Assembly: GCA_937883755.1 (NCBI GenBank)
Contig: CAKZYA010000063.1
Coordinates: forward strand, 186,001 to 250,000
Length of the DNA: 64,000 nucleotides
Reading direction: 5' to 3'
Source: an uncultured Flammeovirgaceae bacterium
GTDB lineage: Bacteria > Bacteroidota > Bacteroidia > Cytophagales > Cyclobacteriaceae
In this document: positions 4,987-18,709 of the stretch, piece by piece
How positions within the stretch are numbered: the first letter of the stretch is position 1
Layout: each line of letters starts with the position of its first letter
Made by a program: the position numbers and the translations under genes
Notes under the pieces: generated by a model
Database searches by the model: none
Seen by the model: only the letters and a program-made list of their open reading frames with translations
What the model was told of the DNA's origin: nothing

Positions 4987-6417
4987 ATGCGTAATCTTGC
5001 CATTCTATTTCTTTCACTCCTACTAATTTCTGCTTGTAGTACCACCCCAACTACCACCAGCGAAGTAGCCTCTGAAGAGGTTGCTTTCGAGTATCCCAAC
5101 ATCATATTTATTATGGCTGATGATCTGGGTTACGGTGATTTGGGATGCTACGGTCAATCCGAAATTCAGACCCCTAACATTGACGAATTAGCTGCCCAAG
5201 GAATTAGATTCACTCAGTTTTACGCGGGTTCTACCGTGTGCGCTCCTTCCCGAGCGGTATTGATGACCGGGCAACACACCGGGCGCACCCACGTACGGGG
5301 CAATGCCGGAGGTAATATTGATCGTCAAGCATTACGAGATGAAGATGTAACAGTTGCAGAAATACTGAAGGGTGCCGGTTACCAAACCGCCCTAGTCGGC
5401 AAATGGGGACTAGGCGAGATAAACCAAGAAGGCCATCCACTTCAGCAGGGCTTTGATTCCTTCTACGGATACCTGAATCAGAAGCATGCTCATAACTACT
5501 ACCCTGAATTCTTATGGAATAATCGGGATTCGGTATTTCTGGAAAATATAGTGCAGCGCACTAATAAAAAATACGGTTCCTTCGTAGGCGGGTACGCCAC
5601 TAAGAAAATTACTTACAGTCACGATCTGTTTGTAAGCAAAGCACTGACTTTTCTAGAACAGGAGCGAAATCAGCCATTCTTTTTGTACTTAGCACTTACC
5701 ATTCCTCACGCTAATAATGAAGCCGGTAAGAAGGGAATGGAAGTACCGGATTATGGTATCTATGCCGATCGCGATTGGCCCGAAACCCAAAAGGGCACGG
5801 CGGCGATGATTAGCCGAATGGACAAAGACGTTGGTCGTCTAATGGAAACGCTGAAAGCCAAAGATATTGACGAAAACACGCTGATAATTTTCACTTCCGA
5901 TAATGGCCCTCACCGCGAAGGTGGTAATGACCCAGACTACTTTGATTCTAATGGGCCACTACAAGGGATAAAACGGGCCATGCACGAAGGTGGAATTCGG
6001 GTTCCGTTTATTGCCCGATGGCCTGCTCACACACCAGCCGGGATCACTTCTGACCATATTGGCTACTTCGGAGATATGATGGCTACATTTGCCGAGCTAG
6101 CAAAGACTGATTATCCGGAAAATACCCAGAGTATTAGCATCGTCCCTACTCTACTAGGCCAATCCGAAAATCAACGCCGCCATAACTATTTGTATTGGGA
6201 ATTTTACGAGCAAGGATCTCGTCAGGCCATTCGTATGGGCAACTGGAAAAGTATCAGGGAACCTATGCTCACGGGAGATATTCAGCTATTCAACTTGGAA
6301 AGTGATATTAGTGAAGCTAACGATGTAGCAAGTCAAAACCCCGAAGTAGTAGAAGATATTATCAGAATTATGGATGAAGCTCACAAGCCATCGCCTAATT
6401 GGGTGGTGAAGCAGTAA
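4987..6417 (+). CDS. Arylsulfatase-family sulfatase, lipoprotein
   Basis: Type I sulfatase that would hydrolyse sulfate esters, probably of a glycan or its fragments. The N-terminus is a lipoprotein signal peptide with lipobox LISAC (Cys17). Metal-binding Asp residues are in MADDLGYGDLG (D45, D46). The sulfatase signature is CAPSR at residues 85-89, whose Cys is converted to formylglycine by a maturase; TGQHTGRTHVRGN follows. The segment FTSDNGPHREGG carries further metal ligands. Length (476) is typical. It lies in the same direction as the SusCD pair and is probably part of the same utilisation locus. The maturase is not in this window. Confidence 0.94.
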   Translation: MRNLAILFLSLLLISACSTTPTTTSEVASEEVAFEYPNIIFIMADDLGYGDLGCYGQSEIQTPNIDELAAQGIRFTQFYAGSTVCAPSRAVLMTGQHTGRTHVRGNAGGNIDRQALRDEDVTVAEILKGAGYQTALVGKWGLGEINQEGHPLQQGFDSFYGYLNQKHAHNYYPEFLWNNRDSVFLENIVQRTNKKYGSFVGGYATKKITYSHDLFVSKALTFLEQERNQPFFLYLALTIPHANNEAGKKGMEVPDYGIYADRDWPETQKGTAAMISRMDKDVGRLMETLKAKDIDENTLIIFTSDNGPHREGGNDPDYFDSNGPLQGIKRAMHEGGIRVPFIARWPAHTPAGITSDHIGYFGDMMATFAELAKTDYPENTQSISIVPTLLGQSENQRRHNYLYWEFYEQGSRQAIRMGNWKSIREPMLTGDIQLFNLESDISEANDVASQNPEVVEDIIRIMDEAHKPSPNWVVKQ

Positions 6418-6552
6418 TGGCGAGGGCGTGGGACTAGGTGTAAGGGCAATGTACTTCTACTTCTCGATTTTTGTTATTAGTCCCTTGTTGCTTACCAATC
6501 TCTGACCTTCCAACTCCGGACTCCCGTCTCCGGTTTTCAGCCTCCTTTTACC

Positions 6553-7860
6553 CTAATCCAACAACACTGTTACTACCTCGGGAAAGAGGATGATTACAGT
6601 GAGGAATACGAGTTGGATGATGATGTAGGGAACGATCCCTCGATAAAGGTGAGCCGTGGTAATTTGGGGTGGGGCTACTCCTTTTAGGTAAAAAAGGGAA
6701 AAACCAAAAGGGGGGGAAAGAAACGAGGTCTGCAGGTTCAGAGCCAATAAAATACCAATCCAGATTAGGTCAATGCCCATACGGCTAAAAATGGGAGCTA
6801 CCACCGGGACGATAATGAAAATAATTTCAATAAAATCGATGAAGAATCCAGCGATAAACACCGCAATCATCACAATCGCCAAAAAAGCCATTGGACTTAG
6901 ATTCGCACTTTCTATTAAGCTTACCAGATAGCGATCACCCTCTAAACCCCGAAAAACCAACGCGAAAGCAGTGGCTCCCACCAGAATAATAAACACCATA
7001 CAGGTAAGGTGGGTAGTCTCTCGCATCACTTCCTTCAGCACAGGTAGCGTAAACTTTCCTTGAACAATAGTAAGCACAGAAGCTCCAAATGCTCCCACAG
7101 CCGCCGCTTCGGTCGGTGAGGCGATTCCGGCGAAGATAGAACCCAGCACTGCTACAATCAGCAGAAACGGGAGCACAAATGCCTTAATAACCTGACCTGC
7201 CATATTTCCCTCCCGAAAACGGGCAATTTCTTCAGTCGGCATAGGCGGAGCTTGTTGCGGACGGAAATACGCCATACCCACTACGTACAATAAATAGCAG
7301 CCCACTAACGCTAAACCCGGAATCAACGCTGCTGTAAATAAATCACCCACTGATACATTTAGCACCGAGCCTAGTAAAACCAATACTACTGAGGGCGGAA
7401 TAATCTGTCCCAGTGTTCCGGCTGAAGCGATGGTTCCGGTAGCCAACTCGGGGCTATAGCCGCGTTTGAGCATGGTAGGTAAACTAATCAAGCCCATCGT
7501 CACTACAGTAGCCCCGACGATCCCGGTGGAAGCTGCCAGCATGGCTCCTACTACTACAACCGCAATGGCCAAACCACCCCGAAATTTACCGAACAACAAA
7601 GCCATTGTTTCCAGTAAACTTTCCGCCAACCCTGATTTCTCTAGCATAATCCCCATGTAAATGAAGAGAGGAACCGCAATCAGCACGTAGTTAGTCATGG
7701 TGCCGTAGACCCGCAAAGACAGTAGATAAAAGAAGTCAACGTCGAACACGAATAAACCGAAAAGTACCGAGACCCCACCCAAGGTAAACGCCACTGGGAA
7801 GCCAAATAAAATCAGGATAAAAATGAGCAAAAACAGGATTAGCGGCAGCGCATCAATCAT
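6553..7860 (-). CDS. dctM: TRAP transporter large permease (DctM-like)
   Basis: Large membrane subunit of a tripartite ATP-independent periplasmic transporter, the ion-coupled channel for organic acids or similar solutes. The 435 residues form about twelve hydrophobic segments with the family's conserved stretches: VPLFIYMGIMLEKSGLAE, GASTG-like AASTGIVGATVVTMGLIS, GTLGQIIPPSVVLVLLG and a C-terminal FLSPPFGFSLFYLKGVAP. It is translated from the last gene of a two-gene operon; its start overlaps the end of dctQ by eight bases. No substrate-binding DctP gene is next to it in this window, so the substrate cannot be inferred. The 135 bases between its end and the sulfatase hold no gene. Confidence 0.95.
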   Translation of the reverse strand: MIDALPLILFLLIFILILFGFPVAFTLGGVSVLFGLFVFDVDFFYLLSLRVYGTMTNYVLIAVPLFIYMGIMLEKSGLAESLLETMALLFGKFRGGLAIAVVVVGAMLAASTGIVGATVVTMGLISLPTMLKRGYSPELATGTIASAGTLGQIIPPSVVLVLLGSVLNVSVGDLFTAALIPGLALVGCYLLYVVGMAYFRPQQAPPMPTEEIARFREGNMAGQVIKAFVLPFLLIVAVLGSIFAGIASPTEAAAVGAFGASVLTIVQGKFTLPVLKEVMRETTHLTCMVFIILVGATAFALVFRGLEGDRYLVSLIESANLSPMAFLAIVMIAVFIAGFFIDFIEIIFIIVPVVAPIFSRMGIDLIWIGILLALNLQTSFLSPPFGFSLFYLKGVAPPQITTAHLYRGIVPYIIIQLVFLTVIILFPEVVTVLLD

Positions 7861-8374
7861 GGACAGTAGGTTCGGTAAGCGTAAGTAGTGAGTTTATAAG
7901 TAGGGAAACTGCTTGGAGTAGCAGTAAAACAAACCCAATCGGAATAGCGGCCTTCACCACATAGCGAGCGGGCAGTCCGCCGGGGTCAGGTGATCCTTCC
8001 TGAATAGCCCAGGAGTTAGCCGTAAATTCCCAGGAGGCTACCATAGCCACCACGCAAAATGGAATCAGAAATAGTATTGTCCCAGTTAAGTTGACCCAAG
8101 CTTGTCGCTTCGGGCTGAGATTCTGGTAAAACACATCTACCCGCACGTGTCGGTCGTGCTTGAGGGCATAAGCTGCGCCCAGTAAAAAAATAATGGCGAA
8201 CAAATGCCACTCGAGCTCTACAATTCCGGCAGAAGAAGTATTGAACAAATAGCGAGCCGCCACATCGTAAACAATCACCAGCACCAGCACGGTAGTGAGC
8301 CAGGCTACTCCCCGCCCTACTGCTTCGTTAAGTCGATCAATGATCTGACTGATGGTAATAAGGATTTTTTTCAA
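7853..8374 (-). CDS. dctQ: TRAP transporter small permease (DctQ-like)
   Basis: Small four-helix membrane subunit of the TRAP transporter, pairing with the DctM channel encoded directly after it. The 173 residues show four hydrophobic segments (for example LTTVLVLVIVYDVAARYLF and WHLFAIIFLLGAAYALKHDRH). The motif R-Y-L-F near helix 1, followed by LEWHLF and the segment AYALKHDRHVRVDVFY, is characteristic of DctQ proteins. The ATG at 8374 lies about 25 bases after a strong promoter-like element. The eight-base overlap with dctM implies translational coupling. Confidence 0.9.
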   Translation of the reverse strand: MKKILITISQIIDRLNEAVGRGVAWLTTVLVLVIVYDVAARYLFNTSSAGIVELEWHLFAIIFLLGAAYALKHDRHVRVDVFYQNLSPKRQAWVNLTGTILFLIPFCVVAMVASWEFTANSWAIQEGSPDPGGLPARYVVKAAIPIGFVLLLLQAVSLLINSLLTLTEPTVHD

Positions 8375-8518: not shown

Positions 8519-10042
8519 TCACCAAAATTTCCACCAAGGTTTTCCCTCACCCCCTCTTTCTTGAGAAAGATGTTCTGATCCTACTAAGGAACCATGAGCA
8601 GGCTGAGCACTTTTCTTCGGATAGCGAATAGTGTGGGTATAGCCGTGTTTCTTCAGAACAGCTTCGGTACGCTTTGCGAGGTCAGCACCTATTTCAGGGT
8701 TGACTGAATGGATATGATTAGCATACCCTCGGATAGACGCTAGCAGATTGTCACTTCCGTTCCAGTGCTTTCCTTCCAACCCGTCCTTTTCGATTTGAAA
8801 TAGCAGAGCTTTAAATTTTTTGATGCTCTTACGATTCACCGTAAGCTTTTCGTTGACAACCACCCCAGTAACTTCACGCCGAGTACCTTTACGCATAATA
8901 CGCAGCTTATCTGGATGCAGTACTAACCCTTCTTCTTTGATTACGCGTCGCACGTTTCCGAGTAATTTGGTGATATGTTTTCGGTTTTCACCACTGGTTG
9001 AAAAGGTCATATCATCGGCATAGCGAGTATAGGTGAAACCGTATTTTTGAGCTAGCCCAAGCAAACGGGCATCCAGCTTACGGCACAGAATATTTGTTAG
9101 AGCCGGACTGGTAGGTGCGCCTTGAGGCAATATGCGCTCACCTTTCGCCACAAAGTAGTTTTTACCATCCAGCACTACTTGATCCACTTCAGGCTCAGTA
9201 CACAACAAAGCCAATACGGTAGCAATCTTTTCGGAGTATCCTAAATTGCGAAAAATACCTTTAACTCGGGGGTATCCGATGGTTGGAAAAAAGTCCTTCA
9301 GGTCTATGTTGATGACTAGTTCTGCTTTCAGGTGAGGAGTGGCATTGGTGATAATACTACGCTGAGTGGCAAAACCGTGAGCCGCGGGATGAATAGCTAC
9401 CTTGTTTAGTAGGTTTTCTAAAACCCAATGCTGAACTTTTTTCAGCCGGGGCATCGGAGCTGAAATCAGGCGTTTACCGCCACTTTTCTTACGAATGTAA
9501 AATCGTTTGTAGTGCGATACTTTGCTGACTTTTCGGTTGTAGGACAAAAATCGTAACTCACCCATCGATATACCCATTGCTTCAGCCAATACAGCTACAT
9601 CTGAAAAAGCGGGTAGGTTATAGCGATTTAGTTTTTCAGCATCAGCCTCCCCGGGTTGTAGCCCGGCTGATACTTTCTCGCCCAGATAAATGATCTCTTT
9701 TTCCCGAAAGGCTTGCCACTGTTGGGCTTTTTCAATGCGCTCTTGCTTTTTTCGCTCTTTGGTTTCCAACTGCTTGCGCCGCGATTCTGCCATCCGCTCC
9801 CGCCGGATTTCCTTCAGCATCTGCTCTTGATTACCGAACTTTCGCTGTTTAGCGGCCAATTCACGAAGTTCACGAGTCAGTTCACCTTCTTCTTTGATTA
9901 ATTGCTCAGGAAGCGATGGCATACCTTCCTGATCGGGCCAGAAACCCAATCGCTTCATCTCCGCGAGAATATACTCATCCTTAGACGAAGCCCTGATTTT
10001 ATCGTAAAGCTGCTGCCGGGTTAATTGGGAAGAGTCACTCAT
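8519..10042 (-). CDS. Retron reverse transcriptase with N-terminal coiled-coil extension
   Basis: Reverse transcriptase that would prime on, and copy, the adjacent msr-msd RNA into msDNA. In the 507-residue product the palm motifs are visible: INIDLKDFFPTIG (first catalytic Asp about 247), ILPQGAPTSPALTN, and the catalytic YADD (341-344). Retron-specific marks are NATPH at 233-237 (NAxxH) and REVTGVV at 390-396 (VTG). Residues 1 to about 150 form an extension rich in Lys, Arg and Glu that should be a coiled coil; a long N-terminal extension is, as I recall, also found in some myxobacterial retron RTs. The frame is open up to 10135, but that would run into the msd hairpin, so I chose the ATG at 10042. 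The last 15 or so residues (RGGEGKPWWKFW end) look like read-through into a low-complexity repeat. Not a group II intron RT: no maturase X domain is seen. Confidence 0.93.
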   Translation of the reverse strand: MSDSSQLTRQQLYDKIRASSKDEYILAEMKRLGFWPDQEGMPSLPEQLIKEEGELTRELRELAAKQRKFGNQEQMLKEIRRERMAESRRKQLETKERKKQERIEKAQQWQAFREKEIIYLGEKVSAGLQPGEADAEKLNRYNLPAFSDVAVLAEAMGISMGELRFLSYNRKVSKVSHYKRFYIRKKSGGKRLISAPMPRLKKVQHWVLENLLNKVAIHPAAHGFATQRSIITNATPHLKAELVINIDLKDFFPTIGYPRVKGIFRNLGYSEKIATVLALLCTEPEVDQVVLDGKNYFVAKGERILPQGAPTSPALTNILCRKLDARLLGLAQKYGFTYTRYADDMTFSTSGENRKHITKLLGNVRRVIKEEGLVLHPDKLRIMRKGTRREVTGVVVNEKLTVNRKSIKKFKALLFQIEKDGLEGKHWNGSDNLLASIRGYANHIHSVNPEIGADLAKRTEAVLKKHGYTHTIRYPKKSAQPAHGSLVGSEHLSQERGGEGKPWWKFW

Positions 10043-10054
10043 AAGATGTAAAAA

Positions 10055-10304
10055 AAGTAGCAACCGGCGAACTTCGTACACTCTCAGGACTGGAGAGTTC
10101 AACTCAAGCACCCCGCTACTAGTATGATATTTCACATCTCCGATGTGACACCGGAAATGTCATACTAGTAGCATGGGGTGCACCGTAATGAACGCGCCAG
10201 TGACGCGTTGCCAAACTATAGGCCAGAGGGGCGATCCACCACTCAAAAGGCAAGTCTTGCCCAATCAGGCTGTACCTGACCAGGATCGTTACCGGCTGCT
10301 ACTT
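10055..10304 (-). ncRNA. Retron msr-msd non-coding RNA
   Basis: The template RNA of the retron, read on the minus strand between the SWIM gene and the RT gene. Its ends are complementary: the a1 arm at 10292-10304 (AAGTAGCAGCCGG) pairs with the a2 arm at 10055-10067 (CCGGTTGCTACTT) over 13 positions with one G-U pair. After a1, the msr part folds with an enclosing stem CGATCC/GGATCG (10283-10288 with 10232-10237) around two small hairpins (TCAGG/CCTGA and GGCAA/TTGCC). A perfect AACGCG/CGCGTT hairpin follows (10191-10209), then the long msd hairpin (10108-10181), and a last ACTCTC/GAGAGT hairpin (10080-10098). This layout (a1, msr stems, long msd hairpin, a2, RT) is the standard retron arrangement. 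The priming guanosine and exact msDNA ends cannot be fixed by eye. Confidence 0.88.
10108..10181 (-). repeat. msd long hairpin (template of the msDNA stem)
   Basis: A 74-base inverted repeat inside the retron RNA. The outer arms GCACCCC and GGGGTGC pair perfectly, then after a two-base bulge (AT) the arms GCTACTAGTATGA and TCATACTAGTAGC pair, then one C-A mismatch, ATTT with AAAT, and an inner TCACATC/GATGTGA stem with a GGA loop. More than 25 base pairs in total. Reverse transcription of this segment would give the DNA stem-loop of the msDNA. Confidence 0.85.
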
Positions 10305-10333
10305 AAGTTCAAGTTAAAATAATTGGTTAAAAT

Positions 10334-11980
10334 TTATACTGTTTTTTTATTTTTTCCGTACGCTAATCGCAGTGCCAGCATATGCTCGCAAGGCCCTTGG
10401 TACAATTTATTCTGCTGAAAGAAATTGCAGTTGCACGTGGGCTTCACCATTCGTTCGTCAGTATCTAAAATTATCGTCGGATTGTACTCTCGCTGCGCTC
10501 CTGCTATCGTTCCCTTTACCATCACTCCCAACCGTTGATCTTCTATCAAGTCAATGCTTACTTTGTCCTGATTGAGCAACTCATGCGCTTTTTCTTCCCG
10601 AGGGTTGGCAAAGCGCAACTCATCCGTAGGTAAAGGCTCACGACGCAATTCACGGATGCGGTATACTTGCTTGTTTAAGTCGTAAATAACCCGTCCGGCT
10701 TGCACGAATGTTCCTAATGCTCCTAGCACTACGTTCCGATCAAGCTCTAGTCGCTTTGCTAACGAATCGGCTGACTCTTGCCAGTTTTCTTTTAGAGCGG
10801 TATAAACTTTCTGCTGGGTGAGTGAATCCACTTCCTGACGGGGAGCCAACAGATCAAAGTTTCCCAGGCGCGACCAATCGTTTGCTGTCCAGCCGGAAAG
10901 CCCCAGCGTAAAGGTCATATCACCCAAATCGGCTTCGTAGAAGGAAGGCATTCCGGTGCCGAGTAAGGTCACGGTAAACTTCTTCGCTACGGGGATCAAT
11001 CGTTCTAAAGTCATCAGCCGACGGCGTCCCCAAATCCTGATTTCGTCAGCTTCATTGCCCAAGTAGGGCGACCGATCGCAGGTAATGTCTATATTCCAGG
11101 GTTCTACCGTAATGCGAATCGGTTGTCCGGGCGATAGATGAAAACGTAACGAGCGAGGACTTTCTTTTTCTTTACGGCGTTTGAGAACAAATAACAAATT
11201 GTGTACGTCCATTGGGTGCAGCTCCAGGCGATGAGCGTCGAGGGTCATAGCCGAACTTACTTGTAAAAAGCCGCGCACCCACGATTCCGGCAGATCAATC
11301 TTTACTTCCTGGTAGGCATCACTGTCGGTAGTTTGCACCTCAAAGCCACTAGGATCGATTTTAAGCTCGGTGTCTTTGTAGGTCCGAATCTTCTGAAATT
11401 CGTCGTAGAGAGCCGATGAATAATCGATATTGGTAGTGCCACAGGCAAATTCATCAATTTCCTGAAACACTTCGTAGCCGCAACTTAGCTTGCCGTAGGA
11501 AGACTCGTCTTGGCTAAAGCACTCAAAAAATACCTCATCGGGGTGCACCGTAATTACAGGATCGAGTACGAACCAAGCGTCCCGGTCTTTTTTGTACAAA
11601 AAATCAAAATACGCCCGACGAGCCTTATAGAATGGTTCCATCACGGCATCGCGCTTCTGCCGTAGGGCTTGCAATTGTTCCATCTTTTCGTCTACTTGGG
11701 TATCAACTGCTTCTTTGCGAGCCATCGCTTCAGCTAGCCAGATCGGTTCCTGCTCAGCCAACCAGGCTTGATAGTCGGTGCGTTCTTTGGGCTTAAAGCG
11801 AAGGTCAGAAACCACAATATCGTGTAGGGCAGAAATAGCTTCGCGAAACGCCAGATGCTGTCGCAGCTTACCAATGAAGTACGTAGGTTCTCGCAAGGTG
11901 TCGGGGGCAAACTCCATCCCTACTGCTTGTGAAGAGCTTTTCACCTGAGTACTTCCTGAATAACGGTAGTTAAATATCAT
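10334..11980 (-). CDS. SWIM zinc-finger protein, retron-associated
   Basis: 548-residue protein of unknown activity encoded directly before the retron RNA (30 bases to the a1 arm). The C-terminus carries a SWIM zinc-binding motif, CNC-N-(12)-C-E-H, at residues 516, 518, 531 and 533; SWIM fingers bind DNA or proteins. An Ala/Gln/Arg-rich helical segment lies near residues 85-120, and about residues 400-460 (TQQKVYTALKENWQES, LAKRLELDRNVVLGALG, then YDLNKQVYRI) look like a winged helix. I see no nuclease, protease, NAD-cleaving or membrane domain. The frame is open to 12061, but the ATG at 11980 overlaps the stop of the previous gene as ATGA, a classic coupling signal, and is the likely start. 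Known biology: SWIM proteins often occur in pairs with WGR proteins. That it is a retron effector is inference from position. Confidence 0.88.
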   Translation of the reverse strand: MIFNYRYSGSTQVKSSSQAVGMEFAPDTLREPTYFIGKLRQHLAFREAISALHDIVVSDLRFKPKERTDYQAWLAEQEPIWLAEAMARKEAVDTQVDEKMEQLQALRQKRDAVMEPFYKARRAYFDFLYKKDRDAWFVLDPVITVHPDEVFFECFSQDESSYGKLSCGYEVFQEIDEFACGTTNIDYSSALYDEFQKIRTYKDTELKIDPSGFEVQTTDSDAYQEVKIDLPESWVRGFLQVSSAMTLDAHRLELHPMDVHNLLFVLKRRKEKESPRSLRFHLSPGQPIRITVEPWNIDITCDRSPYLGNEADEIRIWGRRRLMTLERLIPVAKKFTVTLLGTGMPSFYEADLGDMTFTLGLSGWTANDWSRLGNFDLLAPRQEVDSLTQQKVYTALKENWQESADSLAKRLELDRNVVLGALGTFVQAGRVIYDLNKQVYRIRELRREPLPTDELRFANPREEKAHELLNQDKVSIDLIEDQRLGVMVKGTIAGAQREYNPTIILDTDERMVKPTCNCNFFQQNKLYQGPCEHMLALRLAYGKNKKTV

Positions 11981-14900
11981 ACGGTCTCGGGTTCTACGAC
12001 AGTAATCGGTGATTCTAAAGACGGATACTGCATTTTCAATTGGTGCATCAGTTGGATACAACGAGCTTTATCAGTGATGGCGATAGTAGGGGAAACACGG
12101 GTAAGCAAAGGTAGTACCCAGGCGGCTACCGCCTCGTCTTTTTGAGCCTCCTCACCTAAAAAAGTAAAAGCGCGCTGTTTGGCCACACTGCCTCGGTTCA
12201 CTTGCGAAAGTACTGAAGTAAAGTAGTAATCCATTTTCTGCAAGCGTTCTGGATTGCCAGCCGCGTAGCGGGTCAGATAGTTCGTAACGAACAGTTGTAA
12301 CTGAGTATTGGGGTGCTGGCTCAGTTTTAGCATGTATTCAATACCATTGGCCTCCTGAAAGTGTTGGGTAATTTGTTGCAAACCGAATTGCTGAATCTCG
12401 GGTCTTACTCGATCACAAAGACTTACGAGTAATTCCGGAGTCCAATCTTCTTGCCGAAACTGCTCGGCAAAGAAACGCATCGCAAACTGACGAGAATCTT
12501 CCCAACTAGCATCCAGTAGCTTGAGTGCTTTCTCACGCTCGTAGCGGATACGCGGTACGTTCTTCTGAAAATAGTTGTGAGCTACCTCACGCAGTTCTAG
12601 CATCTCGTGACTACCCAATGCCACAATTTGCTCTAGGGCAACTTGCTCTAAATCTACTTGCTGCTTAAGCAACTGAGCACCCAATAGGTGAGCTTCTCGA
12701 TAATCAGCGTCGATCAGTTTCCATATCTGATCAGAGGAAATATGCTGAAAATAGTCTGACAATTGCTGGCGAAATAGTCGCTCTAAATCCTGATGAATGC
12801 CTTCCTGCGTTTCTTTGCGCCACAGTAAAGGAAGCAGAAGCTCGACGAGTTCGCGCCCAAAGGCAGGGTGATTTTTTAGCAACCGTCCGATTACTGGCTG
12901 TACCTGCTGGCGGATTTCGGGGTGAGCCGATAAGCAGAAGCTGGTGAGTACATCTTTTCGCTCGATGAGTACGGCATCGGGCAGCTGTCCGAATAATTCT
13001 ACTCCAACACCTCGTACCGAAGCGAAAGGACTGGTGATAAATGCTTCAAAAATAGTATCGGATAGTGCTTGGGCATTATTTTGCCGAAGTAGGATCTTTC
13101 CAGCTAACAGCGGAAGCGGTTCCAGCGGGTGCGCGAGTAAAGGTTGCCAAATGGCTTCATCTACCGTAGCAAATGCATCGGGAAAAACTAGCAGCAGGCT
13201 ATCGCTCACCCGAGCTGCGTAGGCGTTAGTCGTGGCTAATTGTTCTTCATCGGCCGGCGGCTGAAGTTGAAGCAGGTGCTGTACTACTTCCTGCACAATC
13301 GCAGCAGCCTGAGCAGGTTCTACCTGATGTTGGGTCAGTAGATTGCGCGCCCACACATGTACTTCTTCTTGCTCCGAACGCAACAAACCAGAAACGAACG
13401 ACGAATGAGTAACAAATGTTTTCGGCTGATCATCTACCCAACGCATACCTAGAGCCTGCGCTTCTGGTAACGGGCAAGTGAGCAAAGCTAATACCAGCTC
13501 TTGGTTAGGGTTTTTGGCATCATACACTGATTCTGCTAATTCTAGTCCGAGCTGATGGCTTTCCGAATACGGTTGGTTAAGCAGATTGGTGATCAGCGTG
13601 GGAGTTACGTACTCGTCTCGGTGAGGATTGGCCCGAAATGCTTTTATAGCAAACTCGTTCACAATTCGGCAGTGGCTTTGTTGCAATAGCGTAACAAGTG
13701 CCTCGGGAGCCTCATCCCATAAATTTGGGAACGCCTCTTCCCGCACGGCCGGAGCTGGTTCGCTCGGTTGGTAGGGAGGCGTACATCGCCACCGTCCTGC
13801 CGCCTTAGCCAGCGTGTAGCGAGGGCTATTTTGGTACAGTAAAAAACCTAGAATTGGATACACCGAATAGTCGGCAAAGTAGGTATCTGTTCTTCGGGAA
13901 TTCCACCGATCATTCACATATTCGTAGGAATATTCGGTTCGTTTTTCAGCTCCCCGGGCATCAGCATCGCTGAAGTTGAGTAGTATGTCGCGGGCGTAAT
14001 TAGTGTACTGAGAACTTTTAGCGTCACCCATGCGCGTGAGCCAGCGTAACGAACGTCGCTGTAAATACTGACGAGTTTTCTGAGAATAGGCCACCCTAGG
14101 TCGTTCTTTAGCAAACTCTTCTCTCAAGTTATTAATATATTCTCCGTCCAGATAAGCGTAATCACCCCAGTGGGGTATCTTAAAATATTCATCCGTTTTG
14201 TCAATACGGGCGGTTATAGTGCCATACAGCCTGGTATCGTCTCTCAGTTCGGCGGCTTTGAGCAAATAGCGTACTTGATGAAAGTAGTTAGGGCGAAACG
14301 GAATCAGGGGAAGCAGCTCGCAAAGAACCTCCATAACGAACGGGTACTGATCGGACACGCGGGGAAGTAAAGAAAGAAAGGAGGTTTCTTCAACCTTAAG
14401 CTCGATCAGTAATTCGCTTAGCTTTTTCGCTAAAGTATCCGGCTGTTGGTTCACAATCGGCTCGCGGATGCTTTCCGGCAATTGCTCGAGAGTTTGCTGT
14501 ACTAATTGCTGGTGATCCGCTTCTGAACCAATCAGGCTTAAAGCTTCGGTGGCGATCCGACTAACGGTCGGAGTAGCCTGTTGCTGTAGCTTGCGAAGTT
14601 TCTCGGCCGACTCAGCGCTACCGCAACGACCTAATGCCCACGCCAGGCTGTAGTCAAAGAGGGCTTCGTTGCGAAGAGGGATGGCCCGGAGGTGGGCTTC
14701 AGCCTCTGGCCACCGCATTTCTCCGGCTCGCCAAACCACCCGCGATAACGGCCAGCTCGATTCGTCATAAGAACCTTGAGCGGCTTTCTCGAGGTAACTT
14801 AGTATCGTAGATTTTTGGGCTGAGGTATCAGTGTCTTGGGCTTTACCAATTTCTGGGGCTTGGCTATTCCCGATAGCTTGGTATCCCTTAGAAGTTTTTT

Positions 14901-15108
14901 CGTTAACCAACTTGGTAAAAACCTTTTCGGCTTCAGCCAGAGGTACTGGAAACACGGTTTTGGTTCCTTCCCGCAATTGAGCGCCACGCTTACCATAGCG
15001 GAAGTTAACTACATACTCATTGGTGCCCACTTCGCATAGATCTACTTCGTAGACTTTATCAGAAGTACCTTGCTGTAAAAAAAGCCTAGCTTGTTGGATA
15101 ATTTTCAC
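11977..15108 (-). CDS. WGR-domain protein with HEAT-like repeats, retron-associated
   Basis: 1,043-residue protein, first gene of the retron operon. Residues 1 to about 80 form a WGR domain: FLQQGTSDKVYEVDL, then NFRYGKRGAQLREGTKT, where YGKRG stands at the Trp-Gly-Arg position. WGR domains of PARP enzymes bind nucleic acid ends. The rest is long and all-helical with many repeated two-helix units (for example the stretches around residues 120-230 and 480-900), as in HEAT/ARM-type solenoids and the MolR-like WGR proteins. No catalytic motif is recognisable. Its stop codon overlaps the start of the SWIM gene by four bases, so the two are translated together. The operon promoter should lie in 15109-15274 but no clear consensus is seen. 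A sensor or scaffold role in anti-phage defence is inference. Confidence 0.88.
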   Translation of the reverse strand: MKIIQQARLFLQQGTSDKVYEVDLCEVGTNEYVVNFRYGKRGAQLREGTKTVFPVPLAEAEKVFTKLVNEKTSKGYQAIGNSQAPEIGKAQDTDTSAQKSTILSYLEKAAQGSYDESSWPLSRVVWRAGEMRWPEAEAHLRAIPLRNEALFDYSLAWALGRCGSAESAEKLRKLQQQATPTVSRIATEALSLIGSEADHQQLVQQTLEQLPESIREPIVNQQPDTLAKKLSELLIELKVEETSFLSLLPRVSDQYPFVMEVLCELLPLIPFRPNYFHQVRYLLKAAELRDDTRLYGTITARIDKTDEYFKIPHWGDYAYLDGEYINNLREEFAKERPRVAYSQKTRQYLQRRSLRWLTRMGDAKSSQYTNYARDILLNFSDADARGAEKRTEYSYEYVNDRWNSRRTDTYFADYSVYPILGFLLYQNSPRYTLAKAAGRWRCTPPYQPSEPAPAVREEAFPNLWDEAPEALVTLLQQSHCRIVNEFAIKAFRANPHRDEYVTPTLITNLLNQPYSESHQLGLELAESVYDAKNPNQELVLALLTCPLPEAQALGMRWVDDQPKTFVTHSSFVSGLLRSEQEEVHVWARNLLTQHQVEPAQAAAIVQEVVQHLLQLQPPADEEQLATTNAYAARVSDSLLLVFPDAFATVDEAIWQPLLAHPLEPLPLLAGKILLRQNNAQALSDTIFEAFITSPFASVRGVGVELFGQLPDAVLIERKDVLTSFCLSAHPEIRQQVQPVIGRLLKNHPAFGRELVELLLPLLWRKETQEGIHQDLERLFRQQLSDYFQHISSDQIWKLIDADYREAHLLGAQLLKQQVDLEQVALEQIVALGSHEMLELREVAHNYFQKNVPRIRYEREKALKLLDASWEDSRQFAMRFFAEQFRQEDWTPELLVSLCDRVRPEIQQFGLQQITQHFQEANGIEYMLKLSQHPNTQLQLFVTNYLTRYAAGNPERLQKMDYYFTSVLSQVNRGSVAKQRAFTFLGEEAQKDEAVAAWVLPLLTRVSPTIAITDKARCIQLMHQLKMQYPSLESPITVVEPETV

Positions 15109-15421: not shown

Positions 15422-15457
15422 ATTTTTTGATCAAGTAACCTGTTGAGTGCTAGCGAA

Positions 15458-16549
15458 ATGAGAGTACTGTTTTTTATAGGTTCTACTATCAATTGGCTTC
15501 TAGCAATCAGCGTTAGTGGCCTGGCGCAGGATAATACTTCTTACGCAGGTGTAAAGGCATACACTGGCTTCATTATTCCCCACTCCGCTGAATTACGTGA
15601 TGTATCGGCGAGGAACCTGTGGGGGATTGGGCTAGAAGCAGGAAGGGTGCTCAAAACCGAGCAGGCATGGGCAAACTGCAATTGCTTCTCTAAGGTAGGT
15701 ATTGGAGCCAACTACTTTAATTACCGTAACCCTCAGGAGTTGGGTGAATCATATAACCTCACTATTTTCGGTGAGCCATATCTTAGTTTTAGGCGTAATT
15801 GGTTTCTCACGCTTAGAGGCGAGGCAGGCGTAAGTTACTTGACCCGAGTATATGATCAAGCTACCAACCCCCGTAATACGTTCTTTAGTTCACCTCTCAG
15901 TTTCCTTATCTTAGCTAACTTTACCCTAAACTACCGTTTTCAAGACAACTACATTTTCCGCCTATCAGCTAACTACAACCATATCAGCAATGGGGGAATG
16001 CGCCACCCTAACAAAGGCATGAACTTTCCTACTCTATCGTTGGGAGTTGAGAAGCACTTTGGAAAATCAGAATTCCCTCAGTACACTAAACAACCAGGGT
16101 TACGAAAACGTAACTGGTATCGCTATCTCTTCTTAGGGGCATCTCGGAGAACGTTGGAAGGCAACCGCTTGCACAGCCGGACTGACCATTTGAATGCAGG
16201 AATAGAAACCGGGTTTATGCGATCAGTCACTAATATCAACGCATTATCTGGTGGCATTGAGTTATACTATAATGGGATACAGGCGGAGCAAGCCCGGCGG
16301 TACAATGAAGAGGCAGTTCCATTACGCTGGTCACTTATGCTGGGGCATGCTCTGGTATTTGGTAAGTTTTCATTTACCCAGCAGGCTGGTTACCATCTGT
16401 ACCAACCCTTCGCCCTGGTTAACAAATCTTTCTTCCAACGCTACGCCTTATACTATCAGTTAGGGACATGGCTACACGTGGGTACTTCACTGAAAGCTTA
16501 TGGACACGTAGCTGATTTTATGGATGTGAGGATTGGAACTCGGTGGTGA
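15458..16549 (+). CDS. PagL-like acyloxyacyl hydrolase, outer-membrane barrel
   Basis: Predicted outer-membrane beta-barrel of the PagL/acyloxyacyl hydrolase family, which removes acyl chains from lipid A. The first ATG (15458) gives a signal peptide (MRVLFFIGSTINWLLAIS, cleavage after LAQ). An upstream TTG at 15443 is possible but less likely. The family motif is at YNHISNGGMRHPNKGMNF, with the conserved His-Ser pair and the N-x-G turn; further strands alternate aromatic residues to the C-terminus (VADFMDVRIGTRW). At 363 residues it is longer than classical PagL (about 170), as is usual in Bacteroidota members. Transcribed divergently from the retron operon. Enzymatic activity is inferred from the motif only. 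Confidence 0.75.
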   Translation: MRVLFFIGSTINWLLAISVSGLAQDNTSYAGVKAYTGFIIPHSAELRDVSARNLWGIGLEAGRVLKTEQAWANCNCFSKVGIGANYFNYRNPQELGESYNLTIFGEPYLSFRRNWFLTLRGEAGVSYLTRVYDQATNPRNTFFSSPLSFLILANFTLNYRFQDNYIFRLSANYNHISNGGMRHPNKGMNFPTLSLGVEKHFGKSEFPQYTKQPGLRKRNWYRYLFLGASRRTLEGNRLHSRTDHLNAGIETGFMRSVTNINALSGGIELYYNGIQAEQARRYNEEAVPLRWSLMLGHALVFGKFSFTQQAGYHLYQPFALVNKSFFQRYALYYQLGTWLHVGTSLKAYGHVADFMDVRIGTRW

Positions 16550-16616
16550 CTATATTGTTGACAACGCCATCCCTTGTCTAATTTTTCCGCGACCAGGAAG
16601 TTTTTTCTAACTTCCC

Positions 16617-16930
16617 GATGTAAATGTCGATCTACAGACTATTCTCACCAAAGATGTAGTCAAGACTGGAGAAAGAGTTCGAAACGATAAGGATATTATT
16701 TTTGATTACTATGAATATGTTGTTAGTTCCATCCATTTTAACCTCCAGCTCTGGGTTATCTTTCCGAGTGAGCCAACCAGCTTACAAATTGTTAATTAGG
16801 TTATTATTGCAGCCAAAACGGCATCACCATTCAGTTCCCTATCCGCAATCTGGATTTTGGTATTAAAGGCAGCACAAAGTTATCAGAGCTAGATTTGGGC
16901 ACGGCTTTGAATGGTAGTCGTAAAGAGTGA
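16617..16930 (+). pseudogene. Decayed C-terminus of an MscS-type mechanosensitive channel
   Basis: Between two intact genes lies a stretch that reads as the last part of a small-conductance mechanosensitive channel in two frames. The frame from 16617 gives DYYEYVVSSIHFNLQLWV before a TAG at 16797; this resembles the usual DYGDSSINFELRVWV of MscS proteins. A different frame from 16811 gives SQNGITIQFPIRNLDF and stops at 16928; this matches the conserved C-terminal FRENGITIPFPQRDLH. No start or transmembrane part is present. A frameshift with a small deletion between the halves explains the arrangement. A small inverted repeat (GGAAGTT/AACTTCC, about 16600-16620) precedes it. The rest of 16550-16964 shows nothing else. 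Confidence 0.55.
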
Positions 16931-16964
16931 TACTTGAATAAGTTGGTTAAATAGATACTTCCTT

Positions 16965-17600
16965 ATGAGAATTAGAATAAAAGAATTCAAACGACTGCTG
17001 GTAGAAAGTGCGCTAATTGTATTTAGCGTTTTATTCGCTCTATTTATCAATCGCTATGCCGAAAGCCAAAAGCTACGACAGCAGAAACAAGTGGCCCTAG
17101 AGCGTATTGTGCAGGAGATGAAAAGTAATTGCGAACTTATAGCTGAAGCTCTAGATATCCATAAAACTGCATTTCGAAACCTTCAGCAAGCCGCTACTGA
17201 TGAAAATGACTCTTTGCGGATTTATATGGCTAAATACAAGTATTTTCTTGATCAAAAGGTCTTCCATCATCTATTGGATGGACAAACATCCTTTTACCCG
17301 GTCTTCCCGGTAAGTACCTCCTGGCAGACAGCATTAGCTACTGGAATTGTTTCGGAATTTGATTATCAGGTAGTAGAGATACTTACAGAGGTCTACACTA
17401 CTCAAGAATATTTTCTGGAGGAATCTCTTAAGGCTACTATCGAGATCATATCCGTACCAATAGAAGATGAGAGTCAAACCATTAATACGCTATTATTTCC
17501 GGTTAATGAATTAGTTCAGCAAGAGCGAAAAACCATCGACGCCATTGATAAAGCACTGAAATTAATGTGCCCTGAGCCAGATGAGGGTCAATCAAATTAA
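16965..17600 (+). CDS. Membrane-anchored protein of unknown function
   Basis: 211 residues. A basic N-terminus (MRIRIKEFKRLL) is followed by one transmembrane helix (ESALIVFSVLFALFINRYAE) and then a mostly helical, charged domain beginning with a likely coiled coil (QKLRQQKQVALERIVQEMKSN). The layout resembles small Bacteroidota proteins with one N-terminal helix and a soluble helical domain, but I cannot assign a family. It stands alone, 56 bases before rlmN on the same strand, so the two may share a transcript. Confidence 0.75.
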   Translation: MRIRIKEFKRLLVESALIVFSVLFALFINRYAESQKLRQQKQVALERIVQEMKSNCELIAEALDIHKTAFRNLQQAATDENDSLRIYMAKYKYFLDQKVFHHLLDGQTSFYPVFPVSTSWQTALATGIVSEFDYQVVEILTEVYTTQEYFLEESLKATIEIISVPIEDESQTINTLLFPVNELVQQERKTIDAIDKALKLMCPEPDEGQSN

Positions 17601-17656
17601 AGAATAACTTTCGCTTACCAAACTTTTCGAAAAGCCTTCGGTGTTGATATTCAAGT

Positions 17657-18709
17657 ATGGAAACGGCATCAGTAGTAAAAAAGGACATTCGTAAAATCAA
17701 ATCGGAAAAACTTCGGGAGTTTTTAGTCGAAGCTGGCGAGAAGCCTTTCCGGGTGAAGCAGGTGGAGGAATGGCTGTGGAAAAAATCAGCGACTAGTTTT
17801 GCGGAGATGACCAACCTCTCCAAGAAAACCCGGGAGCTGCTGGAGAATAATTTTACGATTAATGCACTGCAAGTCCATGAGCAGCAAGTGAGTCGCGATC
17901 AGACTATCAAATCTATGTTTCGGCTGCACGACAGCCATTTAGTAGAAGGTGTATTGATTCCGACCGATTCGCGGATGACGGCTTGTGTATCCTCGCAGGT
18001 AGGTTGTTCGTTGGCTTGTAAATTTTGCGCTACCGGTTATATGGATCGTAAGCGCAATCTGGATGCAGCCGAAATCTACGATCAGGTGGTGCTGATTAAC
18101 CAGCAGGCCAAGCAAAACTACCGGATACCACTTTCTAATATCGTGTACATGGGCATGGGCGAACCCCTGCTGAATTACGCCAACGTGCTGCAATCCATTG
18201 AGCATATCACTTCGCCCCAGGGATTAAATATGTCGCCCAAGCGTATCACTGTGTCTACCGCTGGAATTGCCAAGATGATTAAAAAACTGGGCGACGATCA
18301 GGTAAAGTTTAATTTAGCGCTATCGCTACACGCAGCCAATGATGAGAAGCGCAATCAGATTATGGCAATTAACGAAACCAATAATCTAGAAGTGCTAAAA
18401 GAAGCTTTACAATATTTCTATCAGAAAACCCGCACCCGTATCACTTTTGAGTATATCGTTTTCTACGACTTCAACGATACGCTGGAAGATGCCAAAGAAC
18501 TTTGGCAGTTTACTAAGTACGTGCCCAGCAAAGTGAACCTGATTGAGTACAATCCCATCGCGGAAGCTGATTTCAAAAATACCGAAGAAGATCGGCTCGA
18601 TCAGTTTGCTCGCTACTTGGAAAATAAAGGTGTCACTGTCAATGTGCGCCGCAGCCGAGGCAAAGATATTGATGCCGCTTGCGGGCAATTGGCGATTAAG
18701 CAGAAGTAG
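17657..18709 (+). CDS. rlmN: 23S rRNA / tRNA adenine-C2 methyltransferase RlmN
   Basis: Radical-SAM enzyme that methylates C2 of A2503 in 23S rRNA and of A37 in certain tRNAs. The iron-sulfur cluster motif CSLACKFC has Cys at 117, 121 and 124, preceded by TACVSSQVG as in all RlmN proteins. MGMGEPLLNY is the SAM-binding GEP motif, and the C-terminal RGKDIDAACGQL holds the second catalytic Cys. Length (350) and gene order are normal. Its stop lies six bases from the convergent oligopeptidase gene. Confidence 0.97.
   Translation: METASVVKKDIRKIKSEKLREFLVEAGEKPFRVKQVEEWLWKKSATSFAEMTNLSKKTRELLENNFTINALQVHEQQVSRDQTIKSMFRLHDSHLVEGVLIPTDSRMTACVSSQVGCSLACKFCATGYMDRKRNLDAAEIYDQVVLINQQAKQNYRIPLSNIVYMGMGEPLLNYANVLQSIEHITSPQGLNMSPKRITVSTAGIAKMIKKLGDDQVKFNLALSLHAANDEKRNQIMAINETNNLEVLKEALQYFYQKTRTRITFEYIVFYDFNDTLEDAKELWQFTKYVPSKVNLIEYNPIAEADFKNTEEDRLDQFARYLENKGVTVNVRRSRGKDIDAACGQLAIKQK

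Follow-up and report, generated by a model that had tools for sequence, protein, structure and literature searches.

How could a retron act whose reverse transcriptase (RT) is accompanied by two proteins in which no enzyme is recognised? The question is raised by a locus of an uncultured Flammeovirgaceae bacterium (assembly GCA_937883755.1), contained in a window of 64,000 nucleotides (nt), i.e., the whole stretch of DNA analysed (contig CAKZYA010000063.1, 186,001-250,000), to which all coordinates refer unless a locus handle (L) precedes them. Positions 8519-15108 of its minus strand form one operon with, in this order, a WGR-HEAT protein, a SWIM protein, a structured RNA and a retron RT. This locus is almost certainly a type XIII retron, and it is well supported as an intact further member of an already known retron type. 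Its main interest lies in the clamp fold predicted for the SWIM protein and in an anatomy that can be tested.

Gene content and type of the locus

The genes and the RNA are the following:

8519-10042, minus strand: retron RT, 507 amino acids (PADLOC RT_XIII, 634.5 bits; alignment A1)
8522-8539, minus strand: C-terminal PWWKFW tail of the RT
10055-10304, minus strand: retron non-coding RNA (msr-msd), outer ends a1/a2 included
10334-11980, minus strand: SWIM protein, 548 amino acids from the ATG at 11980 (PADLOC SWIM_XIII, 798.7 bits)
11977-15108, minus strand: WGR-HEAT protein, 1043 amino acids; WGR domain at residues ~1-80, the remainder being a helical solenoid

The WGR_XIII model of PADLOC reaches 1126.6 bits and covers residues 1-1042 of the 1043; for the RT, the model next to RT_XIII reaches 326 bits. 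The genes matching RT_XIII, SWIM_XIII and WGR_XIII stand all together, and this association defines type XIII, a class which reportedly stems from the classification of Mestre et al. 2020. Only WGR, HEAT_2, SWIM and RVT_1 are found above the Pfam cut-offs in the three proteins (RVT_1 with 91.5 bits, WGR and HEAT_2 just above their cut-offs), and no NCBIfam model passes its cut-off for the RT, the SWIM or the WGR protein of the window. Neither a nuclease, nor a NADase, nor another enzyme domain was found in the SWIM or WGR protein by Pfam, NCBIfam and structure search.

The original prediction, made from the letters of the DNA, had described a 1,043-residue WGR protein with HEAT-like repeats, a SWIM zinc-finger protein whose gene overlaps it, and an RT with YADD, NATPH and VTG motifs. 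The domains are those given by Pfam, the ATG of the SWIM gene overlaps the WGR stop as ATGA, and the three RT motifs are all present. It had also mentioned a published association of RTs with WGR/HEAT and SWIM proteins without naming the type, which the PADLOC models identify as type XIII. Its «complete retron defence unit» stands for the retron parts, all of which are present, while the defence role is attributed by analogy with the family.

The listed RT frame of 538 amino acids starts at a GTG within the msd hairpin; since homologues align from the ATG at 10042, a length of 507 amino acids was retained. The best PDB match of the type XIII RT alignment is the RT of Ec86 (E 4.1e-66, profile positions 132-473), preceded by an N-terminal extension of about 130 residues which looks like a coiled coil by eye. 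A tree of 39 RTs places type XIII on the same side as the PADLOC-labelled retron types I-C, II-A, III-A and VI, with RT-Cas1 and four group II-like RTs that carry no label on the other side (100/100). A single type XIII clade is not demonstrated by this tree, because the label needs two changes and one origin is found in 25% of the bootstrap trees, the branches being long.

The SWIM protein and its partners

The AlphaFold2 model of the SWIM protein (60 sequences) has a predicted local distance difference test (pLDDT) value of 76 and a predicted template-modelling score (pTM) of 0.73. Foldseek gives 466 matches in PDB at E <= 0.001 (best E 3.2e-9, target template-modelling (TM) score about 0.66 over about 250 columns), and the best 50 of these 466 are all clamps of the PCNA or 9-1-1 type or chains of their complexes. 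In BFVD (viral predictions) 96 matches are obtained at E <= 0.001; among the best 50 of the 96, 27 are named clamps or processivity factors and 23 have no telling name. It must be added that the WGR model, searched alike, gave only solenoids among its best 50 matches, so that a general search artefact does not account for the clamp result.

Residues 34-361 or so are thus predicted to adopt a two-domain sliding-clamp (PCNA-like) fold, as known from the ring that keeps DNA polymerases attached to DNA. From our reading of the order of helices and strands in the model: (i) the first clamp domain comprises residues ~34-57 and ~142-225 and the second ~250-361; (ii) a coiled coil (~68-136) is inserted in the first clamp domain; (iii) a winged helix (~386-442) follows. 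The SWIM zinc finger corresponds to residues 506-539 (Pfam). Across the 60 members, which come from several phyla, the stretches DPVITVHPDE...FECFSxDES and GTTNxDYS are near-invariant; they fall within the predicted clamp region and are partly retained in relatives found without an RT. As for the WGR-HEAT protein, its AlphaFold2 model (pLDDT 91) retrieves only HEAT-type solenoids among the best 50 PDB matches, with low TM scores, and a DNA-binding-type domain carried on a solenoid is predicted.

Two RT-free loci (L048:5828-9938 and L049:4721-9022) pair a SWIM protein with a DUF6493-DUF7824-DUF7825 protein. As in the window, the SWIM protein is homologous (21-22% identity; SWIM_XIII 190 and 214 bits) and adjoins a large protein, here of DUF6493 type, with weak helical-repeat matches. 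Unlike the window, both loci have neither RT nor RNA, and neither SWIM protein has the coiled-coil insert, which is present in the RT-linked SWIM proteins, that of the divergent locus L047 included. Strong RT-free SWIM relatives occur in 9 genomes out of 195 (the query's own included), with DUF6493 directly adjoining in 8 of the 9. DUF6493 is found in those 8 genomes only, and the ninth SWIM genome is 75% complete. The RT-free pair is a candidate for a system of its own. Since its SWIM proteins lack the insert, it is suggested that an RT was added to a module of SWIM and helical-repeat proteins, which then acquired the coiled coil. An HSDR_N-like gene lies near the pair in L048. A possible link with MoxR-vWA was rejected, no MoxR or vWA gene being present among the neighbours scanned at the two loci. 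In the main text of the eLife 2020 paper, «SWIM», «WGR» and «MolR» are absent as whole words.

The short aromatic tail of the type XIII RT would suit docking on a clamp, by analogy with PIP boxes, and is a candidate contact. Two adjacent Trp within the last 10 residues are found in 34 of 43 non-cyanobacterial type XIII RTs and in none of 17 cyanobacterial ones, the background being 5/849 for other frames, 1/91 for SWIM frames and 0/77 for WGR frames. By eye, none of eight other retron RTs has this tail. The stretch that precedes it reads as a variable linker. In one assembly, the RT (L089:14640-16099) matches in pieces, over three frames.

The msr-msd RNA and its distribution

The RNA is organised as follows:

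10292-10304, minus strand: a1 arm, 13 nt, 92% complementary to 10055-10067
10055-10067, minus strand: a2 arm, followed by a run of T
10251, minus strand: predicted branch (priming) guanosine, first base past the inner closing stem ACTT/AAGT (10252-10255 with 10071-10074)
10226-10244, minus strand: msr hairpin P1, 8 pairs, 99.4% of cells paired, 6 pairs changed on both sides
10190-10201 with 10089-10100, minus strand: long-range helix around the msd hairpin, beside the conserved TCACT, GAGTTG and AGTC
10108-10181, minus strand: msd hairpin, 74 nt, with a variable stem and a conserved apical part (10129-10158)

The strand 10043-10333 has a folding energy of -119.7 kcal/mol (z = -7.6), none of 200 shuffles being as low, and the 19-nt arms of the msd hairpin are 95% complementary in the window, so that the RNA with complementary 13-nt ends and a long msd hairpin of the original prediction is present. 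Sixty-eight RNAs were obtained with a seed motif, and 58 of them entered the alignment A3; three motif matches without CTTGC were excluded from the seed. In 56 of the 68 RNAs the complementarity of the ends is above the 95th percentile obtained with mismatched flanks, and in 25 it is above the 99th; the window, with a score of 35, lies between the two percentiles (30 and 38). The secondary structure was written by hand from the collected sequences, and covariation was computed on the 58 sequences of A3: 93.4% of 1972 cells are paired, vs. 71.2% for shuffles and 32-43% with a slid partner; both partners vary in 29 of the 34 base pairs, and the covariation score is 0.614 vs. 0.207. The long-range helix has 11 pairs in two helices (8 changed on both sides, one of the 11 non-standard in the window), and the base, apical and tip helices of the msd hairpin covary. 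When the window (10191-10209) and its close relatives are folded as single sequences, the covarying long-range helix has a competitor in a local AACGCG...CGCGTT hairpin, which could be a switch or chance.

The covariance model R1 built on this basis has 105 matches over 93 sources, including 16 loci that the seed motif missed, and none in the 24 sources used as controls, which comprise other retron RT loci, the sites of two same-genus genomes, SWIM loci without an RT and unlinked cyanobacterial RTs. The window scores 146.5 bits over 10071-10255, being one of the model's own rows. Two weak matches were not counted (L047, 19.6 bits; L122, 18.8 bits and cut off). Rfam gives nothing at the gathering threshold in the window. 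CTTGC begins 87 of 98 R1 matches, a conservation to be read with the fact that seed rows were chosen by a motif requiring it; the other 11 retain TTG, and their closing stem changes mostly with its partner. The closing stem occurs as CCTT/AAGG, ACTT/AAGT, TTTT/AAAA and GCTT/AAGC, the next base being constantly G. G10251 is thus the predicted priming guanosine, a branch role which we take over by analogy with Ec86.

The msd stem differs widely even between close relatives. Between L042 and L068 the frame is identical at 111 of 113 positions and the apex at 30 of 30, and the stem at 19 of 42 columns. Selection for hypervariable stems was rejected: in 68 pairs (single-copy loci, RNA frame identity >= 0.82, protein identity >= 75%, many pairs sharing a locus) the mean stem identity (0.52) is not below that of fourfold sites (0.43), and the stem is the less identical of the two in 21 pairs. 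Drift that keeps the structure would suffice to explain the variation, and no selection for stem variety is claimed, because the stem does not drift faster than fourfold sites. The origin of the window stem as a spacer or phage copy was also rejected: no exact 20-mer occurs in viral_contigs, the phage search gives a best E of 10, and with up to 2 mismatches the stem is found in its own genome only as itself. Enrichment of stems in palindromes (88 of 98 RNA matches, 49 after removal of redundancy) is weak, 17 of 300 shuffles being as high for 4 bp and 15 of 300 for 6 bp. The words GGTAC and TACTA are commoner than in any of 200 shuffles, and the same holds for several others, many words having been tested on related sequences.

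Two to four RNA templates are present at 16 of 76 loci, spaced by about 0.8 kb or less in 11 and by 1-6 kb in 5. Four copies stand in a row upstream of one RT at L117:11735-12688, L080:11730-13026 and L131:5114-6355, and 13 further loci hold two. Between copies of one locus, mean identity is 0.76 for the frame and 0.35 for the msd stem. One RT serving several templates would be useful where a retron is to yield more than one DNA.

The distribution was established on the best 80 of at least 387 stretches of genome_contigs encoding a relative in a scan with the SWIM alignment, and on 11 further loci, window included, drawn from whole genomes. The best 80 have WGR in 66 cases, RT in 51 and RNA in 71; where both flanks reach at least 4.5 kb (55 loci), the counts are 48, 42 and 52. 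The RNA accompanies all 50 scan loci whose RT exceeds 400 bits and 9 of the 10 whole-genome loci other than the window, L047 being without it. Two gene orders exist, i.e., WGR-SWIM-RNA-RT and RNA-RT-WGR-SWIM. Neither of the two outcomes named as refuting the original prediction was obtained: the RT falls on the retron side of the tree, and a conserved covarying RNA lies between the SWIM and RT genes of relatives or before the RT. The trio also recurs with its RNA across phyla.

Among 59 relatives, SWIM matches occur in 9 (7 strong) and the RNA in 6, all of them strong-SWIM genomes. The seventh strong-SWIM genome (G433) has a divergent SWIM protein and RT, no RNA match, and a neighbouring protein matching HEAT-ARM_XIII and only the repeat part of WGR_XIII. 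Phylum-wide, WGR_XIII matches 39 of 395 genomes, in full length in 5 only, that of the window included. At L047:5853-12529, RT_XIII and SWIM_XIII stand with a HEAT-ARM protein that has no Pfam WGR match, and a very long hairpin precedes the RT.

Thirteen SWIM loci with full flanks have no RT nearby. The genomes of ten of these loci, all cyanobacterial, were searched, and a type XIII RT is present elsewhere in the genome in 10 out of 10 (L070, L073, L075, L082, L085, L100, L108, L113, L125, L139), so that the loci tested are not degenerate. The RNA is at the SWIM locus in 8 of these genomes and elsewhere in 2, none being found in the DNA examined around each unlinked RT; in G452, G453 and G454, RT and RNA share a contig more than 1 Mb apart. 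In these cyanobacterial genomes, the type XIII parts are retained together without linkage.

The insertion site is given by a same-genus genome:

8486-15499, no strand: whole unit absent at the same site in G397 (L064)

There, the flanks corresponding to window 8485 and 15500 are about 118 bp apart, vs. the 7-kb unit. In another same-genus genome (G396, L065:1214-5804) the site is occupied by four different genes, some of which resemble glycosyltransferases by eye. SWIM is found in none of three same-genus genomes searched, and no SWIM relative was found in viral_contigs. The flanking genes (4987-8374 and 15443-18709) are, by eye, a sulfatase, TRAP transporter subunits, an outer-membrane-type protein and an RlmN-like radical SAM protein.

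Possible modes of action and known systems

In the preferred, though tentative, proposal, the RT and its multicopy single-stranded DNA (msDNA) would restrain a clamp-SWIM/WGR-HEAT effector that blocks replication when a phage disturbs the msDNA. The RT would bind the msr, prime from the 2'-OH of G10251 and copy the msd into a small DNA with the 74-nt hairpin. The complex would keep the clamp-SWIM/WGR-HEAT pair inactive, the candidate contacts (guesses) being the WW tail of the RT, the two coiled coils and the conserved msd apex. Alteration of the msDNA by a phage product would free the pair, which would grip DNA or the replication machinery and halt replication without cutting. Restraint and release are described for other retrons in PMC12948488 and PMC12548924. 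A more complete form of this proposal, rather doubtful as a whole, is that type XIII would be a clamp-based immunity: the PCNA-like SWIM clamp would come from the RT-free clamp-SWIM/helical-repeat module and be tethered to the RT by the coiled coil, acquired together with the RT, and in non-cyanobacteria also by the WW peptide; the msDNA would act as decoy or loading site, and phage or host replication would be stalled by the released clamp with no DNA cutting.

Several points speak against this proposal: (i) the clamp is taken from a predicted model of mean pLDDT 76, and ring formation is speculative; (ii) no clamp family of Pfam (PCNA, DNA polymerase III beta) is matched by the window protein (SWIM only) or is among the 25 commonest of the 63 families matched by the 60 members, and a PDB profile search with the SWIM protein gives no clamp up to E 1; (iii) the WW tail is no universal contact, because it is missing in all 17 cyanobacterial RTs, and what the tail or the coils would bind is a guess; (iv) in the divergent locus L047, RT and SWIM are present without a clear match to the RNA; (v) the idea of restraint followed by release is borrowed from other retrons.

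It is possible, if somewhat doubtful, that the clamp-SWIM/WGR-HEAT pair is instead a sensor which recognises phage replication proteins or DNA ends at the msDNA and passes the signal on via host factors encoded elsewhere. Clamp and WGR domains serve to read DNA or the replisome (PCNA, WGR of PARP) and no toxic enzyme was found in either protein, which fits such a role; against it, the trio and its RNA recur across phyla and no constant fourth gene was noticed, though none was searched for. That SWIM or WGR-HEAT has an unrecognised catalytic activity, e.g., at the near-invariant SWIM stretches described above, we regard as an equally doubtful explanation: conservation over 60 members and several phyla speaks for it, but the stretches lie in the predicted clamp region, are partly kept in RT-free relatives and match no enzyme family. 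A module of DNA repair or replication restart, not of defence, is unlikely. In its favour, WGR and clamp folds typically belong to repair and replication proteins, and the parts are unlinked in some cyanobacteria; however, the distribution is patchy (SWIM strong in 7 of 59 relatives and found in none of three same-genus genomes), and two of the latter have the site either empty or occupied by other genes. Finally, that the locus is no retron but an RT beside an unrelated structured RNA, to which the missing Rfam and NCBIfam matches could point, is extremely improbable in view of the RT family, the a1/a2 ends, the covariation and the RNA at 50 of 50 RT loci of the scan.

No mechanism for type XIII was found in the literature searched, subscription papers and preprints lying mostly outside it, and the SWIM clamp fold, the RT WW tail, the split cyanobacterial RT and the 2-4 templates were not found described there. 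The only type XIII mention found is a PADLOC listing for Variovorax, in PMC11953036. PADLOC has msr-msd models of its own, according to PMC9252829, which may already include this RNA; the model R1, the clamp fold and the RT tail are described here.

With the type XIII retrons of PADLOC the window shares three proteins at near-full profile length and the gene neighbourhood, and nothing essential was seen to differ. With Ec86 (retron-Eco1) and the other solved retron RTs it shares the RT core; compared with the Ec86 RT, type XIII RTs add the N-terminal extension and often the C-terminal tail. The Ec86 partner is a ribosyltransferase, according to PMC12948488, and type XIII partners differ from it. 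The predicted fold of SWIM residues ~34-361 resembles PCNA, 9-1-1 and the phage and bacterial clamps; the SWIM protein differs from PCNA-type clamps in that no sequence match was seen and in having a coiled-coil insert as well as a fused winged helix and a SWIM finger. PCNA itself belongs to archaea and eukaryotes. Retrons of known mechanism mostly use an enzyme effector, whereas no enzyme was found in either type XIII partner; the clamp prediction gives a testable idea of how type XIII could work, and direct tests are made possible by the predicted clamp, the short tail of the RT, the naturally split systems and the RNA, which is defined and has a predicted priming site.

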